Below, one piece after another: positions 1 through 7,241 of a stretch of DNA of 7,241 bases. The position numbers and the translations under genes are program-made. The DNA lies in contig MGSU01000131.1 in the NCBI GenBank assembly GCA_001799195.1, forward strand, positions 1 to 7,241, read 5' to 3'. A model generated the notes under the pieces. It had not been told where the DNA came from. It made no database searches and saw only the letters and a program-made list of their open reading frames with translations. This DNA is from Deltaproteobacteria bacterium RIFOXYA12_FULL_61_11 (GTDB lineage: Bacteria > Bdellovibrionota_F > JAHFAK01 > YA12-FULL-61-11). Every line of letters begins with the position of its first letter. Within the stretch, counting starts at the first letter, position 1.

Positions 1-1625
1 CGCAGATCGGCGAGAGTAGCTCCCTCGAGGTTCTTGAAATCCTCGGTTGACGGCACTTTCTCGGGCGCGGTCGCTCCTGCTATTTCCGCGAGGAGGGTAG
101 CACAAGCCTTGCGAATCCGGGCATCGTTCCCTTCAGTACACGAGGTTGCATGAGCCTTTGCGTCTTCTTTCTTCCCCAACTCCAGAGCGACCACGGCGAG
201 TTGGTACCTCGCAGGGAGCGGCACCGCACCCTTTGGATAGAGCGCACGGGCGGCTTCCAGGAAGGTCAAAGCCTCGGTGAAGCGCTTGCTCTCCAGGCGT
301 TTGCTCCCGAGGTCGAGGAGGAGTTGTCGCCGTTCCGGCAGTGGGAGTATTTCGAGACCATGGGCTTCCAGTTGAGACAGGGTCACCGTGTCCTGAGAGC
401 GCAATACCACCTCGAGTTCGTCCCGGTTCTGAGAACGCCGTTGCTGTTCGATCTGCTGCGCGAGTTCCCGGCTCAACTGCAGACAACTCGCGCTGAGGCG
501 TCGTTCTGAGGGGATCGCGTCGAGACAGCGGCGCAAACAGGCTTCCGCTTCCTGCATAGCACCGTTCTCGAACAAGGCCTGGGCCTGGTCATGTTCGAGG
601 CGTTGGGGAATACCCATCCCATGGTGAAGGCGCAAAGATCTCTCCAGTTCGAGCAACTCCACGACTCGCGGAAAATTCTTGTTCCCAAGGTAGTGCCGGG
701 CAGTATCGGCGAGCCAGGACAGTGCCTCACCCACCGAATGGGGAGCGAGTAAGGCCTGGATTTCCGTCAGACTGCTCCGTTCGGCCTGTTCGAGGGTCGG
801 CAAGGGAAGGGGGACCGGTTTCTCGGTGTCGAGACGTTTCTTATCGAGGGCCTCGAGTTCGGCCTTGAACTGCCGACAGGTCGCGAGCTGTCCATCCTCA
901 GGTCCCGGACTTGCCAGACACGCCGTGATGTAACGGCGTGACTCGTCGTAGTGTTCGAACTCCAGATGGACCAGTGCGAGATATTGCAGGAGGGAGCGGG
1001 CAGGGGGCAGGCCGAGTTCTCCGTGCAGCCGTTCGCTCGTGGTGAGATAGGTCAGCGCATCGGCGTGGGCCTTGCGGCGCATACAACCCAACGCCGCCTG
1101 TTCCAGGAGGCGGAAGCGATCGGCGGGTTCGAGAGTAGGCACGATGGTTGCGAGTACGGTTTCGACCGACTTCCCCTCGAGTGCGACCAAGGCCTCGCCA
1201 AGACTCGGTCCGCGCTTGGATGCCGCCACCTCTTCGAGTTCGTTGTCGATTTCCGCTCGTACCAGCCGACATTCGGCTTTATCGGTGGCTTGCCCCTCAC
1301 CGGTCAGGCATGCCTCTACCGCTTGTTTCGCCTCCTCGAGGCGTCCGGTCATACGTGCGCAATCGGCCAGTCCCCCCAAGGCAGGGAGGGGCAGGGAGGT
1401 CTTCGTAGCTGCGGATTGTTCCCGCAGGAGGGCGAGAATGTCGTAGCACTCCTGGATGCGTTTGAAGGCCTTGGCTCGGAGAGCAGCGGACATTGCCAGG
1501 GAGCTGCCCTCGGACAGAGGTAGATGAGGGAGCAGAAGTTTGACGAAATCGGTCAGCGCCGGAGGAGGGAGGGTCAGGAACACCTCGACCATGTTGTGCA
1601 TGGTCTCTTCGTTCATGGAACCGAG
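1..1625 (-). repeat. Protein-level super-repeat of about 130 residues, four copies plus the start of a fifth
   Basis: Within the giant protein, residues about 864-993, 994-1123, 1124-1254 and 1255-1380 are successive diverged copies, and a fifth begins at about 1381 at the window edge. Each copy has a short helix pair beginning like LEGKSVETVL or LEGATLADL, then an L-rich helix, a TPR-like hairpin, a Pro-containing loop (such as LPLP or VPLP), a second hairpin with G-x4-A spacing, and a Cys pair. The second Cys is followed by a helix rich in L and E. The first Cys of the pair falls at 969, 1099, 1230 and 1359, that is steps of 130, 131 and 129 residues. Identity between copies is low at DNA level, so this is an old protein duplication rather than a recent tandem repeat. 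Similar but less regular units are seen earlier, around residues 304-421 and 588-707. Confidence 0.7.
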
Positions 1626-4214
1626 GGCGAGTTCTTGGGGAAGGCCGCGCAGCCAGGCGTGCAAGGCGAGAAGAATAGTTCTGGCGGGTTCGGGATTCCT
1701 GGGCAAGGCTCCTTGGGCCACCAGGATGACCACGGTCAGGACTTCGATGACCTGACGGCCGTCGCGGAGCAGTGCGCGACCGAAGGGTTCGAGGTACACA
1801 GGGACCCGGTCGAGTTCTCCGGGACGTTGCTCGAGGTAACCGAGCACGAAGGAATAGAGGGACCAGGGCCAGGGTTCGGAGGGACCAAAGATCGTGTCGA
1901 AGACCGGAGCGAGATCGCGCTCCAGGGAGTGTTCTTCCTGGGCCAGGTAGAGCTCGAGGACCTCGTCGAGGAAATCCTCGGAGGTCAAGACTGCGCGGTG
2001 GATCGGATCGGCCAAGACGTTCTTGAGGCGTTCCCTTCCCTGAGCGAACGAGCTGCGCAAGGAATTGACCAAGTCCTTGCCGAGGATGTAGGCAAATTCC
2101 TCCTCGAGGTTGCCGCACATGACGCCCTCGTGATCCTTGCGATCGGGGAATTGTTGCATGCATTGCCGGAGGGATTGGCTCGCCCCTTCGAACCGTCCGA
2201 GCCGTACCTCGGCAAGGCCGGATTGGAACACCACATCCACGGGTATCGGAAGATCGTGTTTCTGGAGCAGTTCTCGGGTCCGGCGGTAGAACCACAGAGC
2301 CTGCTCGTACCGGGTCTGGTCGAAACAATGATGTCCTGCTTGGGTCAAGACCTCGCTCCCCGTCGCAACGGGCAAACGAACGCTGAGCTCCTCGAAGAAC
2401 GAGGTGGTCAACGCCGGAACCTCCAACTGATGCAGTAATTGCACGAGGTCGGCGGCATGCAAGGGCATCCCGATGAACCCCGGAGCGGGAACAGGCAGGG
2501 TACGCAACCAATCCCGGATATGTTCGGCCACAATGCGGAGGTCTTCGTGAGAACGTCGTTCGGCTTTCGCGAGGGTCAGGATCTCGTACGCGGTCTGGAG
2601 ATAGAGTGCAGGACCTTCTTCTTCCCCGACCAGACTCTCCCGTACCTGTGCAAGGTGATGGAGTATGGTTCCCAGGGGTGCCGAGCGACGGACAAGGTAG
2701 CGAGCCATGGTTGAGGGGAAGGGAACAGGAATGCAGTCCCCCGGAGCATAGGTGGCGGTAATGATCCTTTCGAGGTCGGCCACCAAGTCGACGTTCTTGT
2801 TCAAGAGATAGTGTTTCGCAACCTCTTCGAGCAGATCTTCCTGGAGCAAAGCAGCGCTGAACTCTTTCCTCTCCGCCAGCGAGAGCAGTAAGGTTCTGCC
2901 ACGGTCGAAGCTCTTCTCGAAGGCAGCAAGAAGGTCTTGGGCAAGGGAGAATTGGAGTTCACCTTGCAGAGCGAGACAAATCGAGAGGTGTTCCGCGTCC
3001 GCCACGGAGCGGCAAGCCTCGACTTCCCCTTGAGCGGCAGAGTACTGGTGTCTGCGAACCAGGATCAGACCGAGAGAAAAATGGTCGTTCGGTTCTCTTC
3101 CGAGCCCGAGGGTTTCACTGAGGGCGAAGGCTCGGCGGTACGAAGCTTCGGCCAGTTCGAATTTCTTGAGGGCAGAGAAGTGCTGCCCCGCTTCCATGGC
3201 GAATATGCGGCGCTGTTGTGGGGGCAAACGAGGTTCGAGTTTCTGCAAGACCCGCTGGTACAGGTTATCGTTACCGAAATGTTCGTTGAGTTCTAGCAGT
3301 TTTCGCCCGTCGAAGGGCTGGTCCTCGGCCACGGAGCGGTCACCCAGAGTATCCAGCCAGCGGTACAGTTGCGGCAGCAACGCGGCTGCCTCGGGAAGGG
3401 AGAAGGTGCTGAAATAATGGGCGGTGTCGCCCCAATCGATCAGGTATTCGACTGGGTCCCGTTGGTGCCGTTCGATACTCAGGGCCAACTGCTCAAGCGT
3501 GGGGAGTACTTGGTCCCGTTCGAGCCGGGAGCGCCGGAAATGACGCAATAACCTGCTGAAGTAATATGGGTCTATGACTTCATCCTGCCCGAAGAAGGTG
3601 TCGAGGCAGGGAAGCAGGTCTTCACCAAGACGGTGTTCGTCCTGGATCAGGTAGAGCGCTGAGAGACGGTCGAGGAATTTTCCGTAAAGGAACACTTCGC
3701 GGTTGCGTTTGTGCGCGCCGAGTTCGGCGAGCTGGGTTCTGCAGTCCTCAAGAGAGATGCGGCACTTGGCCAGGACGGATTGGGCCAACGAACGGTAATA
3801 GTTGTCGAGGAGGAATTGCGGGTACGAGTATTCGAAGACCGAGGTCTCGCGACTGAACAGATAGGTATCGATGAGTCTCAGGTTGTCGGCCAAAGCTACG
3901 ACATGCTCATCGTCGCCGAGTTTCCCGTAGAGCCGGATGAGGTGATTGGTGAGGACGATGCGCGACTCGACTCCCTCGATCCACGGTTCGACGTTTCTGA
4001 GACAATCCGCGCGGCACTGGTCCTCGCCGGGCAGAAACAGACAAGCCTTCAGCAAGGCATCGGAGGGATTGAGGGCCAGCCAGACGGCCGTATAGAGGCC
4101 GAGCACCAGCAGGAGGAGGGCTACGGACAGGAAGGGTTCTCGCAGGAAGATCCGCACTCGCCGGGGAACGGTGCCGACATCGGGGCGTGCAATAGAGGAG
4201 GGGGCCTCGCTCAC
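1..4214 (-). CDS. Giant membrane-anchored TPR-like repeat protein (partial, 3' end beyond window)
   Basis: The minus-strand frame starting at the GTG at 4214-4212 has no stop through to base 1, giving 1,404 codons plus two bases, so the gene continues past the left edge. The start overlaps the stop of the upstream radical SAM gene as GTGA, suggesting translational coupling; a second GTG directly before it (4217-4215) is an alternative. Residues 17-26 are Arg-rich and residues 27-48 form one hydrophobic segment, so an N-in, C-out membrane anchor is predicted, with the rest in the periplasm. The remainder is helical and TPR-like, with A/L/G-spaced helices such as LAEASYRRAF (354-363), YEQALWFYRR (636-645) and RFTEALTFLEAAR (1311-1323). 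From about residue 864 it forms super-repeats of about 130 residues. The 24 visible cysteines are often paired across inter-helix loops. There is no catalytic motif, so a scaffold or protein-binding role is likely. The function is unknown; the reading frame itself is near certain. Confidence 0.9.
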   Translation of the reverse strand, partial: MSEAPSSIARPDVGTVPRRVRIFLREPFLSVALLLLVLGLYTAVWLALNPSDALLKACLFLPGEDQCRADCLRNVEPWIEGVESRIVLTNHLIRLYGKLGDDEHVVALADNLRLIDTYLFSRETSVFEYSYPQFLLDNYYRSLAQSVLAKCRISLEDCRTQLAELGAHKRNREVFLYGKFLDRLSALYLIQDEHRLGEDLLPCLDTFFGQDEVIDPYYFSRLLRHFRRSRLERDQVLPTLEQLALSIERHQRDPVEYLIDWGDTAHYFSTFSLPEAAALLPQLYRWLDTLGDRSVAEDQPFDGRKLLELNEHFGNDNLYQRVLQKLEPRLPPQQRRIFAMEAGQHFSALKKFELAEASYRRAFALSETLGLGREPNDHFSLGLILVRRHQYSAAQGEVEACRSVADAEHLSICLALQGELQFSLAQDLLAAFEKSFDRGRTLLLSLAERKEFSAALLQEDLLEEVAKHYLLNKNVDLVADLERIITATYAPGDCIPVPFPSTMARYLVRRSAPLGTILHHLAQVRESLVGEEEGPALYLQTAYEILTLAKAERRSHEDLRIVAEHIRDWLRTLPVPAPGFIGMPLHAADLVQLLHQLEVPALTTSFFEELSVRLPVATGSEVLTQAGHHCFDQTRYEQALWFYRRTRELLQKHDLPIPVDVVFQSGLAEVRLGRFEGASQSLRQCMQQFPDRKDHEGVMCGNLEEEFAYILGKDLVNSLRSSFAQGRERLKNVLADPIHRAVLTSEDFLDEVLELYLAQEEHSLERDLAPVFDTIFGPSEPWPWSLYSFVLGYLEQRPGELDRVPVYLEPFGRALLRDGRQVIEVLTVVILVAQGALPRNPEPARTILLALHAWLRGLPQELALGSMNEETMHNMVEVFLTLPPPALTDFVKLLLPHLPLSEGSSLAMSAALRAKAFKRIQECYDILALLREQSAATKTSLPLPALGGLADCARMTGRLEEAKQAVEACLTGEGQATDKAECRLVRAEIDNELEEVAASKRGPSLGEALVALEGKSVETVLATIVPTLEPADRFRLLEQAALGCMRRKAHADALTYLTTSERLHGELGLPPARSLLQYLALVHLEFEHYDESRRYITACLASPGPEDGQLATCRQFKAELEALDKKRLDTEKPVPLPLPTLEQAERSSLTEIQALLAPHSVGEALSWLADTARHYLGNKNFPRVVELLELERSLRLHHGMGIPQRLEHDQAQALFENGAMQEAEACLRRCLDAIPSERRLSASCLQLSRELAQQIEQQRRSQNRDELEVVLRSQDTVTLSQLEAHGLEILPLPERRQLLLDLGSKRLESKRFTEALTFLEAARALYPKGAVPLPARYQLAVVALELGKKEDAKAHATSCTEGNDARIRKACATLLAEIAGATAPEKVPSTEDFKNLEGATLADL
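4071..4136 (-). other. Single N-terminal transmembrane segment of the giant repeat protein
   Basis: Codons 27-48 encode an uninterrupted hydrophobic stretch containing ALLLLVLGLY, preceded by Arg residues at 18, 19, 21 and 25. It has no signal-peptidase or lipobox motif, so it should remain as an uncleaved signal anchor. By the positive-inside rule the long repeat region would lie in the periplasm. A cysteine cluster at residues 58, 67 and 71 follows directly on the predicted periplasmic side. Confidence 0.75.
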
Positions 4215-5377
4215 CACTTGAACGGTATATCCTCCTCGCCGGTGCAGAGGGGATCTCGACGGTCGTAGCGTCCGTAGGTGAGGAATGTCGCCGTTTTGCA
4301 GCCGCCGCCGCAGCGTTCGAGACTCGTGCAGGCCGAGCATTCGGCCGGGATCGCATGGTAGGTGGCCCGGCGTGCGCGGAACAGGTCCCAGACCTCGGCC
4401 AGCGAGTGCTCGAAGATGGAGGCCAGGGATTCGGAGCGCGAGGTGAAGGGACAGGGGAGGACTTCGCCGCTGTGCAAGATGGAGAGGTTGTCGTGGTAAT
4501 CCGGACATCCACTCCCGGTGAAGGTGGCCGCGGCCTTGGCGGCGGGCAACCGATGGTGCTTTGCACATACCTTCGCCATCAGGGCCCTGGCCTCCTTCCA
4601 GGTCGGGGCGTCGATGGCGAGTTCGGCAGCGAGATCAGGGTGTTCGAGTTGGGGCAGGTAACGTTCCATGGTGGGAATGACCCCCAGGGTCAGAGCCTGT
4701 TCAACCAGGGCCTCGAGATAGGGGGTATTGAGCTTGGTCAAGGTGATGAACAGGCCGAAATGCACACCAAGCGCCTTGGCCGTGTGGATGGACTGCATTA
4801 CCTTGGCATGGCAATCTGCGCCCGTGATGGCCTTGAAAACGGCCGGATGATCGTAGTTGTAGAAGACGGCGACGTCCTCGCCGAACCCAGACAGCCTCTT
4901 CAAGAGGTTCTCATCGAGGGCGACTCCATTACTGAACACCACTGCGATCATGCCGCGGCGCACGATGGCCTCGACGAAGTCGAGCAGCCGGGGGTGGAGC
5001 GTCGGTTCGCCTCCGAGCAACTGGACCACATGGACCTGAAGCCGCGCGGCCTGCTCGATGAGGTCGTGGAGCATGGGCTCATCCAAGCGTTTCCCGGCCG
5101 GATGGCGCTCGACGAAGCAGTAGCGGCAACGTAACTGGCATTCGGTGTTGATGAAGAGGTCGATCTTCTTCGGATAATCGAGCAAGAGTCGATAGAGCGC
5201 GCGCTCGAGGGCGGGCATGCCGGGGACCTCTCCCACTCCGGCAAGCACCCGGTAGGCCAACGTATCGGTGGGAATGGTCTTGCCGTAGCGCAAGGACTGC
5301 TTGATGCTCCGGTGCAGCCACTTCCAAGCAGCCGATCGGCCGAGCGCATGCAATCTGGAATGGGGTGATGGTTTCAT
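4211..5377 (-). CDS. Radical SAM enzyme with C-terminal SPASM domain
   Basis: This 388-residue protein has a helical N-terminal extension of about 70 residues, then a radical SAM core. The core shows Cys80-X3-Cys84-X2-Cys87 (in NTECQLRCRYCF) for the S-adenosylmethionine-binding [4Fe-4S] cluster, and the GGEP motif at 122-125 that contacts the SAM amino group. The C-terminus is a full SPASM domain: Cys291-X12-Gly-X4-Cys309, then Cys347-X2-Cys350-X5-Cys356-X3-Cys360-X17-Cys378, seven ligands for two auxiliary clusters. This architecture is known from peptide- and protein-modifying enzymes such as anaerobic sulfatase maturases, PqqE and MftC, so a post-translational modification role in the cytoplasm is plausible. 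No sulfatase and no short precursor peptide is seen in the window, so the substrate is unknown. The ATG start has a good Shine-Dalgarno. The gene follows the lipoprotein gene by 30 bases and its TGA overlaps the next start. The family call is firm; the subfamily is not. Confidence 0.95.
   Translation of the reverse strand: MKPSPHSRLHALGRSAAWKWLHRSIKQSLRYGKTIPTDTLAYRVLAGVGEVPGMPALERALYRLLLDYPKKIDLFINTECQLRCRYCFVERHPAGKRLDEPMLHDLIEQAARLQVHVVQLLGGEPTLHPRLLDFVEAIVRRGMIAVVFSNGVALDENLLKRLSGFGEDVAVFYNYDHPAVFKAITGADCHAKVMQSIHTAKALGVHFGLFITLTKLNTPYLEALVEQALTLGVIPTMERYLPQLEHPDLAAELAIDAPTWKEARALMAKVCAKHHRLPAAKAAATFTGSGCPDYHDNLSILHSGEVLPCPFTSRSESLASIFEHSLAEVWDLFRARRATYHAIPAECSACTSLERCGGGCKTATFLTYGRYDRRDPLCTGEEDIPFKW
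4231..4236 (-). promoter_or_regulatory. AGGAGG Shine-Dalgarno-like site far upstream of the GTG start
   Basis: A perfect AGGAGG lies inside the last codons of the radical SAM gene, but 16 bases before the GTG at 4214 and 13 before the GTG at 4217, longer than the usual 5-9. No start codon in the right frame lies at better spacing. This, with the GTGA overlap, suggests the giant gene is translated mainly by coupling to the upstream gene. The site may simply reflect Glu-Glu codons. Confidence 0.35.
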
Positions 5378-5380
5378 CGG

Positions 5381-5391
5381 CCTTCTCCCTC
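5381..5391 (-). promoter_or_regulatory. Shine-Dalgarno of the radical SAM gene
   Basis: The purine-rich GAGGGAGAAGG lies in the 30-base gap after the lipoprotein stop codon. Its GGGAG core is 7 bases from the ATG at 5377, a normal spacing that supports this start. The gap holds no visible terminator, so read-through from the upstream gene is expected. Confidence 0.7.
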
Positions 5392-5407
5392 AGCAAGGAT
5401 ACGGCGC

Positions 5408-6655
5408 TTACGCTTTCGCCCGCCAACGGAGCATAGCGGGGACGAGCAGCGCCGCGAGCAGGAGCCACAGACCTGTTCCCCGTGCTTCACCTCGATCGAC
5501 GGTGGTTAGGACGCAACCCCCTCCGCTCTGGACCGATTTCTCGGGATCGTCGTAGTCGACGCTCGGCGTGCCGAGCCCGGTGGCCGAGATGGTGGTATCC
5601 GAAGAGGTCTCGGAGTCGTCGGGACGGTCGGTCGTGGATTGCTCGGCCCCCTGGGGCAGGGGGTCTTCGCTCTCGTCCGAGGGCTCCGCGGTATCCTCGC
5701 TGACCCCGGGTTCGGTCTGATCGGAACTCGCATCGTCGGACACCTCGAGGGTTGCAGGATCGTCCGAGGGGTCGAGTTCGAGCTGCACGATCTTCAGTTC
5801 GTCGGCTCCCGCGGCAAGGGTCAACTCGTGACGATAGTCGGCATACCCCTTAGCCGTCACCGTGAGGGCATACTCGCCGGCCTCGAGCCCTTCGAGGGTG
5901 AACCGGCCTTCTTCGTTGGAGATCGCGGTAAGGATCGAGGGGGGAAGGGAAACCGCGGCCGTAACCACGTTCTCGCCGTACGAATTGATGACGATGCCGC
6001 GGATGCGGGCGTCTCCTTCGCCTACCACGGGCGGGGGATCGTCGTCGTCATCGTCATCAGGGGGCGTGGTCCCTGCCGGTGCGGTAGCGGCCTTGACCTC
6101 ACGGACGAGCCGGTCCCAGTCGAAGTCGGCGTTCATATTGTAGTTCTGCATCGGTTCGCGTTCTTGCGGCAAGTTGTATTTGACGCACAAGTATTTGATG
6201 AGTTTTGCCAGCCCGGTATACTGTTCTGCCGTGAAGGTCGTTGCAACAGCGTCGGCGCCGGTCGGGCGCATCGGTAGGTAGATGGCGATGCTGTCCTCGT
6301 TGCGATCGCCGGCGTGACGCACGGCGTATTTCTCTTGGATGAGTTGGGTCACCGCGCCCGTGGCCCGGTCGACCACGAAGTGCCCGCCGATATGCTTCGA
6401 GACACAGGCTTCGCCGTTCTTGAGGCAGTTGACCTCGCTGCTGTAGGTCCCGATGTCCTGGTGGAGGATGACCCGTTTGATGGGTTCCGTGCGTGCCCAG
6501 AAAGCAGCCAGGTCGACGCAAGGCACCCAAGCAGCGCCCGGATACTCTGCCGTGTCCGTTGCATTGAGTTGGTATTTGAAACGCAAGTCCTCGTCACCGG
6601 CGCAACCGAGGAGGAGTCCGAGGAGAGCGAGGTGGAAGAGAGAATGACGTTTCAT
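5408..6655 (-). CDS. Lipoprotein with degenerate Amidase_2-like domain, carboxypeptidase-regulatory-like domain and C-terminal sorting tail
   Basis: The 415-residue product starts with a lipoprotein signal peptide: MKRH, a hydrophobic core, and the lipobox LLGC with Cys18 as the lipidation site. Ala at +2 argues against inner-membrane retention by the classic rule. Residues about 57-188 resemble Amidase_2 (AmpD/PGRP-like N-acetylmuramoyl-L-alanine amidases): VILHQD with His65, KHIGGHFVVDR (87-97), VRHAG with His114, and FDWDRL (178-183). The usual catalytic Glu is Tyr126 (SIAIYLP in place of IGIEL), and the late His and the Lys of the K-x-D-P-G motif are not evident, so it may bind peptidoglycan without cleaving it. 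An Asp7 run (200-206) links to a carboxypeptidase-regulatory-like beta-sandwich (217-293, with GRFTLEGLEAGEYALTV). An acidic linker (294-372) precedes the tail. The ATG overlaps the preceding stop as ATGA, with a weak GGGGG Shine-Dalgarno. Domain calls are by motif only. Confidence 0.85.
   Translation of the reverse strand: MKRHSLFHLALLGLLLGCAGDEDLRFKYQLNATDTAEYPGAAWVPCVDLAAFWARTEPIKRVILHQDIGTYSSEVNCLKNGEACVSKHIGGHFVVDRATGAVTQLIQEKYAVRHAGDRNEDSIAIYLPMRPTGADAVATTFTAEQYTGLAKLIKYLCVKYNLPQEREPMQNYNMNADFDWDRLVREVKAATAPAGTTPPDDDDDDDPPPVVGEGDARIRGIVINSYGENVVTAAVSLPPSILTAISNEEGRFTLEGLEAGEYALTVTAKGYADYRHELTLAAGADELKIVQLELDPSDDPATLEVSDDASSDQTEPGVSEDTAEPSDESEDPLPQGAEQSTTDRPDDSETSSDTTISATGLGTPSVDYDDPEKSVQSGGGCVLTTVDRGEARGTGLWLLLAALLVPAMLRWRAKA
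5411..5527 (-). other. MYXO-CTERM-like C-terminal sorting signal
   Basis: The last 39 residues of the lipoprotein run Gln-Ser-Gly-Gly-Gly-Cys381, a short polar spacer, a hydrophobic helix GLWLLLAALLVPAML (395-409) and a basic end RWRAKA. The order Gly-rich/Cys, transmembrane helix, Arg cluster is that of MYXO-CTERM and related Cys-containing tails processed by rhombosortase-family proteases. The spacer of about 13 residues between Cys and helix may be longer than usual. It could instead be a plain C-terminal transmembrane anchor. Confidence 0.6.
6038..6058 (-). repeat. Asp7 codon run
   Basis: Seven consecutive GAT/GAC codons (residues 200-206 of the lipoprotein) form a short trinucleotide run between the amidase-like and carboxypeptidase-regulatory-like domains. 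It is flanked by Pro-Pro before and Pro-Pro-Pro after, so it reads as a flexible acidic linker. Such runs can vary in length between strains by slippage. Confidence 0.7.
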
Positions 6656-7241
6656 AAGACCCCCAAGAACAAAAATGGCAACACTATGATAGCACCGACG
6701 ACAACCAGGGAGAACATGGTCAGGAAAACAGCCCCGGCTTTCTCTTCCGAGGTAGTCCCCGGATTGCCCTGAGGCGGTGGGAGGGCTCCGAGCGGTTGTT
6801 CAGGGAGGGGACCGTCCGAGGCCAGGGGCAGTTCGGAGGAGAATGGAATGTTCAGGTTGGTTTCCAGCAGTACCTCGTCCCCCCGCTTGAGCACCAGTTC
6901 GTACATCCCGTCGTGCAGGTCGAGGAGCAATGGCGCCAAGCCCATGAAACGTCGATTGAGGTAGAGTTCCACCCCTTGCCGACCAGGGAATGGGTCGAGG
7001 TACAACCATCCGGCCTTGGCATGGAGCAACCAACTGCGGCCCTCGGTCAGGCAACGGGTCACATCGGTCTCGGTGATGGTGCGGCGCAGGAAGTTGAGCG
7101 AGCGCGCCATGATGCGACGGTTGTCGGCTTGGAACACGGTCAACTGGTCGAGGTCGGGACGCAGGTCGACCAGGCCCAAAGGATCATTTACGGCAGAAAC
7201 CTGCTCGAGGCTCAGACCCCTGCGGCTCAAGATGTCGAGCA
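6652..7241 (-). CDS. PEGA-like domain protein with C-terminal transmembrane anchor (partial, 5' end beyond window)
   Basis: The frame is open to the right edge, with 195 residues visible before the TGA at 6654-6652. The TTG at 7230 could be mistaken for a start, but the frame continues upstream with no stop, so the true start probably lies outside. The visible part begins with a helical region of no recognised family (ending near FLRRTITETDVTRCLTEG). Next comes a PEGA-like beta domain at 7011-6844 (GWLYLDPFPGRQGVELYLN, then GLAPLLLDLHDGMYELVL), matching the pattern of a Pro-Gly turn, 'vyln', 'G-x-x-P', and 'l-x-x-G-x-y-x-l'. A Pro/Gly-rich linker follows, and then a hydrophobic segment (AGAVFLTMFSLVVVGAIIV onward) that ends at the last residue. 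PEGA domains often occur in envelope proteins and beside Ser/Thr kinases in Myxococcota; no kinase motif is visible here. Its stop overlaps the next ATG as ATGA. Confidence 0.8.
   Translation of the reverse strand, partial: LDILSRRGLSLEQVSAVNDPLGLVDLRPDLDQLTVFQADNRRIMARSLNFLRRTITETDVTRCLTEGRSWLLHAKAGWLYLDPFPGRQGVELYLNRRFMGLAPLLLDLHDGMYELVLKRGDEVLLETNLNIPFSSELPLASDGPLPEQPLGALPPPQGNPGTTSEEKAGAVFLTMFSLVVVGAIIVLPFLFLGVL

Follow-up and report, generated by a model that had tools for sequence, protein, structure and literature searches.

Type IVa pilotins are described as six-TPR (tetratricopeptide repeat) proteins, of which Myxococcus Tgl is an outer-membrane lipoprotein with predicted disulfides between TPR5 and TPR6 and between TPR6 and the following helix (Cys212/Cys227), Neisseria PilW has a single disulfide, which joins TPRs 3 and 4 and is crucial for function, and Pseudomonas PilF is without a disulfide (PMC10653833). 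PflB of H. pylori crosses the membrane with one transmembrane (TM) helix, which connects a short cytoplasmic N-terminus to a large periplasmic domain that is helical and contains TPRs; the word disulfide is absent from the PflB account, and in the parts considered here no 130-residue module with a Cys pair is reported (PMC11392913). Helicobacter HcpE potentially contains nine disulfides (PMC4597128).

The DNA analysed here (the window, 7,241 nucleotides) represents bases 1-7241 of the 10,432-base contig C131, and the genome assembly comprises 4.64 Mb in 342 contigs at 87% completeness. It encodes most of a giant protein that shares features with each of these systems. As in Tgl, its TPRs are expected to be extracytoplasmic, and Tgl Cys212/Cys227 belong to the same spacing class as its predicted pairs; the Tgl-type bridge between the last TPR and the next helix agrees in both position and spacing with the bond predicted here. 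It differs from the pilotins in its predicted N-terminal membrane anchor, in its length of 1642 residues and in its eight Cys-pair modules. In place of a pilotin lipobox with an acylated Cys, it has an uninterrupted predicted TM helix (residues 28-46), and its first 57 residues contain no Cys. The layout of PflB, as given in the parts of its account considered here, recurs in the giant protein at the level of architecture only (short N-terminus, one TM helix, helical TPR ectodomain), although PflB is about half as long. HcpC and HcpE, which consist of Sel1-like repeats, are exported alpha/alpha solenoids with repeated disulfides, as predicted for the giant protein. Sel1-like proteins carry one Cys pair per ~36-residue repeat, whereas the giant protein has one per ~130-residue module, and the Sel1 repeat model gave no Pfam match in it at E <= 1.

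The giant open reading frame starts with GTG at 4214 and continues for 1404 codons without a stop before the window edge. Because the stop codon of the radical SAM/SPASM gene overlaps this GTG, the two genes are probably translationally coupled. Close relatives of the radical SAM/SPASM protein were absent among 145 diverse genomes and a contig collection. The coordinates of all features are collected in the table.

Features of the giant gene and its surroundings (window positions unless C277 is named; residues are those of the giant protein)
Feature	Position	Strand	Remarks
Contig-end overlap of 75 bases with C277:5897-5971	1..75	.	exact, unique; in linker region, start of module 7
Window part of the giant TPR-module protein (residues 1-1404 of 1642)	3..4214	-	GTG start; C-terminal 238 residues in C277
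Module M7 start, residues 1385-1404	3..62	-	Cys 1481/1493 in C277
Module M6, residues 1258-1384, Cys 1359/1371	63..443	-	close sister of M7
Module M5, residues 1128-1257, Cys 1230/1244	444..833	-	
Module M4, residues 1000-1125, Cys 1099/1113	840..1217	-	
Module M3, residues 870-995, Cys 969/982	1230..1607	-	
Arm 3, residues 713-869	1608..2078	-	
Module M2, residues 588-712, Cys 685/700	2079..2453	-	query of AF2 module model (pLDDT 87)
Arm 2, residues 429-587	2454..2930	-	
Module M1, residues 304-428, Cys 401/413	2931..3305	-	
Arm 1, residues 138-303	3306..3803	-	first copy of ~160-residue helical arm
Single predicted TM helix, residues 28-46	4077..4133	-	mean hydropathy 2.38
Radical SAM/SPASM protein	4211..5377	-	stop codon overlaps GTG of giant gene (GTGA)
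Remainder of M7 and complete M8	C277 (L014) 5182-5970	-	M8 Cys 1612/1626

Further genes were noted around this pair. On the minus strand at window positions 5408-6655, a protein with a lipoprotein-like N-terminus combines an N-acetylmuramoyl-L-alanine amidase domain with a carboxypeptidase-regulatory-like domain; its C-terminal tail consists of GGGC followed by hydrophobic and basic residues, which we take to resemble MYXO-CTERM-type sorting signals. A run of N (an assembly gap, translated as five X) lies near L015 240-255, that is, in C131 just past base 7239, and falls within the upstream lipoprotein-like gene. An MshEN-domain protein encoded a few genes upstream of the window (L015 1917-3431, minus strand) resembles a degenerate PilB/GspE ATPase, and a protein in C277 (L014 1842-3323, minus strand) has a central DnaJ domain, a TPR-like C-terminus and a presumably PATAN/DUF4388-like N-terminus. 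HemB, TatD, ThiF, the MshEN-domain protein and other neighbours look like unrelated genes.

The missing C-terminus was found on a second contig. In a protein search of the same genome, the last 24 residues of the window's frame matched one end of C277 with 100% identity, and beyond them C277 encodes a stretch that shares 61% identity with residues 1283-1381. The end of C277 is an exact copy of window bases 1-75, and the assembly contains no third copy of this overlap. When C131 and C277 are joined, the frame runs on to a stop codon, giving the 1642-residue protein, and reading frame, repeat phase and sequence family are all unbroken across the junction. We infer this join at the assembly level, from a 75-base overlap in a fragmented assembly. 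The copy that the preliminary description saw beginning at the window edge thus continues in C277, where a further module lies between it and the stop codon.

Eight modules are present in all. The first three are each preceded by an arm, while M4 to M8 follow one another at ~130 residues; the spacing between first Cys residues along the protein is 284, 284, 130, 131, 129, 122 and 131. In the N-terminal half, a ~284-residue unit made up of a ~160-residue arm and then one module occurs three times, with 23-25% identity between the copies. For these earlier units, Cys pairs at 401/413 and 684/700 had been proposed about 284 residues apart; the distance holds, but the Cys is residue 685 rather than 684. 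The accompanying suggestion that ~284 residues represent two longer modules is ruled out, as the arm does not resemble a module (hhalign probability 0.35%). Arm 3 is all-helical in the predicted model, the arms gave no Pfam match, and a profile of the long unit (arm plus module) matched nothing but the giant protein itself.

The repeat is evident from the sequence in several ways. Self-alignment of the 1642 residues reached a score of 563, with offsets near 281 and 130, compared with 38-61 in 12 shuffles. A test profile built only from the four modules originally described, those with their first Cys at 969, 1099, 1230 and 1359 (positions that are confirmed, with partners at 982, 1113, 1244 and 1371), found M7 at E = 3.7e-25 and M8 at E = 1.2e-11, the former nearly all and the latter wholly outside the window, in C277. 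The same profile found M2 (E = 2.6e-8) and M1 (E = 0.008), with the best of 200 shuffles at E = 0.25. Leave-one-out profiles scored all eight modules at 33-82 bits, and shuffled modules did not exceed 16. Pairwise identity between modules is mostly 16-31%, and conservation is strongest in the two-TPR core and in the Cys loop with its following helix. The leading segments align in register in the module alignment, as had been noted for LEGKSVETVL (starting at 1012) and LEGATLADL (1396). Taken together with the predicted helix order given below, the central proposal of the preliminary description, a ~130-residue composite repeat of fixed helix order that builds a very large solenoid-type protein, is supported.

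We considered whether this could be an ordinary long TPR array in which the 130-residue period is a beat of unequal TPR spacing and the module is no unit of duplication. The leading helix pair on its own is weakly conserved among the modules, and all recognisable outside homology is to TPRs, both of which would fit such an array. However, the four-module profile aligns whole modules nearly end-to-end (M7 over positions 7-122, M2 over 12-122), the Cys pair occurs once in every module, and the 284-residue unit with its arm occurs three times. In addition, M6 and M7, the closest pair, are identical at 64 of 118 residues, and at the DNA level their common stretch matches at 54 of its initial 60 bases before the similarity drops, which suggests that a whole module was duplicated, or gene conversion took place, fairly recently. 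An ordinary array is therefore unlikely and is mostly refuted by the profile cross-validation. We retain the composite module as the repeating unit.

This module is nevertheless closely tied to the TPR superfamily, with two consecutive TPR hairpins at the core of every copy and a TPR-like fold. Among the models of the TPR clan (which includes TPR_2, TPR_8, TPR_12 and TPR_19), several pass their curated cut-offs, with 44.7 bits for TPR_2 (cut-off 27), 43.9 for TPR_12 (30.1) and 41.6 for TPR_8 (25.7), and Pfam matches are confined to the TPR clan. Compared with solved structures, positions 39-103 of the module profile align to two consecutive consensus TPRs, from which the module departs by an insertion of ~5 residues at the proline loop. 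The unit duplicated here is ~125-130 residues and seven helices long, not 34 residues, and adds the proline-loop insertion, a cap helix and the invariant Cys pair to the TPR core. A tandem 34-residue period does not extend over the whole array; since only two hairpins per module are canonical, the giant array is, judged from its sequence, TPR-derived with a composite period. The idea of an undescribed repeat family thus stands in part: curated Pfam and NCBIfam contain no family for the module beyond generic TPR models, yet the module is not foreign to TPRs.

Structure prediction agrees with this picture. An AF2 model of the module, with M2 as the query and the six window modules in the alignment, has seven helices, is all-helical and reaches a mean pLDDT of 87. 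Its PDB matches are mostly TPR proteins, with Z of 12-13.6 for the TPR structures, and TPR proteins top both PDB comparisons. A second model spanning residues 704-1404 (701 residues) is likewise helical with a pLDDT of 80.5, but its overall shape is not reliable because of a pTM of 0.43; its modules were compared by helix order and Cys placement. M4 to M6 repeat the same helix order in this model, from an alignment without relatives for these three modules. The predicted order is a degenerate leading pair of short helices, TPR hairpin A1/B1, hairpin A2/B2 and cap helix C. Chains of the C. jejuni periplasmic scaffold (9hmf) were among the PDB matches of the long model; a phmmer search of the giant protein against PDB sequences gave no match. 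Part of DdvA (PDB 8rot, 8rw5), a transmembrane protein, also aligns with the module (Z 12.8 over 123 residues, rmsd 5.1); this is probably a generic TPR match. Overall, the giant protein represents a new and unusually regular form of TPR-type solenoid; it elaborates a fold that is well known and is not a new kind of system.

Each module carries a Cys pair. The two Cys columns show no exception among the modules (8 of 8), whereas no alignment column exceeded 4 of 8 Cys in any of 2000 shuffles, and the only invariant columns of the module alignment are C, C and E. In 4 of 4 modules of the 701-residue model, helix B2 ends 1-2 residues beyond the first Cys, and the second Cys sits within helix C, 5-6 residues from its start. 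The two most likely form a disulfide, which would secure each two-TPR block at its exposed end. The genome has two fusion genes, each with VKOR and a DsbA-like thioredoxin domain in one frame, and contains three further Thioredoxin_4 (DsbA-like) matches; given the VKOR-DsbA fusion genes, extracytoplasmic disulfides can form in the host. A Tgl-like lipoprotein from another genome matches the module profile, and its Cys pair falls at, or immediately beside, the Cys columns of the module. Just past the TM helix, residues 58-71 (4002-4043, minus strand; CLFLPGEDQCRADC) look like a stand-alone Cys-pair half-module, with a self-alignment score of 44 that is within the shuffled range.

Alternatively, the Cys pairs could serve as metal ligands, or the coupled radical SAM/SPASM enzyme could modify them, for example by forming thioethers. 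Peptides and proteins are frequent substrates of SPASM enzymes, and the gene for this enzyme overlaps the start of the giant gene. Yet the enzyme is expected to be cytoplasmic and the Cys residues lie in the domain that is probably exported, while two lone Cys 12-15 positions apart and without a conserved His or Asp would make a poor metal site. The VKOR-DsbA oxidation pathway of the genome, together with the predicted disulfide at a similar Cys arrangement in Tgl (PMC10653833), also argues against both versions, which we regard as very unlikely. A disulfide in each module remains our preferred reading.

The giant protein contains only one strongly hydrophobic segment, the TM helix, and several arginines precede it. 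By the positive-inside rule, this Arg-rich N-terminal side places the remainder of the protein, as expected from its sequence, outside the cytoplasm. From these features we infer membrane topology, disulfide formation and scaffold function alike, and consider it likely that the giant protein is a single-pass inner-membrane protein of ~1642 residues that acts as a disulfide-stapled, eight-module TPR scaffold or spacer. It would consist of a ~27-residue cytoplasmic N-terminus, one TM helix and ~1,590 mostly helical extracytoplasmic residues. More specifically, the ectodomain would form a TPR-type solenoid of eight ~125-residue, seven-helix modules, in each of which one disulfide would staple the end of helix B2 to cap helix C. 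Within the periplasm, such a long, stiffened solenoid would most likely act as a spacer or as a scaffold that binds proteins. The least probable reading is a sensor anchored in the membrane, or a receptor of the anti-sigma type, in which the TPR ectodomain would detect a signal outside the cytoplasm, as DdvA might: this transmembrane anti-sigma factor does occur among the structural matches of both the module and the long model, but the ~27-residue N-terminus of the giant protein is too short to leave room for a cytoplasmic sigma-binding (anti-sigma) domain, no sigma factor adjoins it in the stretches of C131 and C277 examined, and TPR folds match one another generally.

We also searched for relatives of the stapled TPR scaffold. 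With the module profile, 386 diverse genomes and 195 genomes of another phylum yielded TPR-core matches only and no array of Cys-pair modules, and the one other genome of the host's phylum in the collection searched gave no module match. A whole-protein search of 98 genomes returned one weak TPR match elsewhere and nothing more, searches of contig collections found no orthologues of either the giant protein or its radical SAM neighbour, and plasmid records gave no match. Within the same genome, a smaller protein is encoded on C316 (L069 675-1856, minus strand; at most 393 codons). Its N-terminal region includes a hydrophobic stretch and a juxtamembrane Cys pair, and the protein ends in a single module-like TPR segment that has a Cys pair of its own. 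It scores 21.3 bits against the module profile, compared with 9.4 for the best of 500 shuffles, and hhalign aligns it to the module at E = 1e-4 with a probability of 58%. This is suggestive only, but the C316 protein may be a basic form of the giant protein. A broader reading, which we put forward tentatively and as the less likely outcome, is that of a distinct repeat family, in which a self-contained, seven-helix, disulfide-capped TPR module is duplicated whole, with or without the ~160-residue arm, and builds very long extracytoplasmic scaffolds in a nearly unsampled phylum, with the single-module C316 protein as its basic form.

The host is a poorly sampled bacterium, and its lineage has an unrecognised giant envelope protein for which annotation pipelines would say only 'tetratricopeptide repeat protein'. 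The protein shows how a TPR solenoid can be extended by copying multi-hairpin blocks with a predicted disulfide clasp in each, rather than 34-residue repeats one at a time. Provided that the staples form, it would represent a natural stiffened, oxidised TPR scaffold, which would be relevant to designers of repeat proteins.
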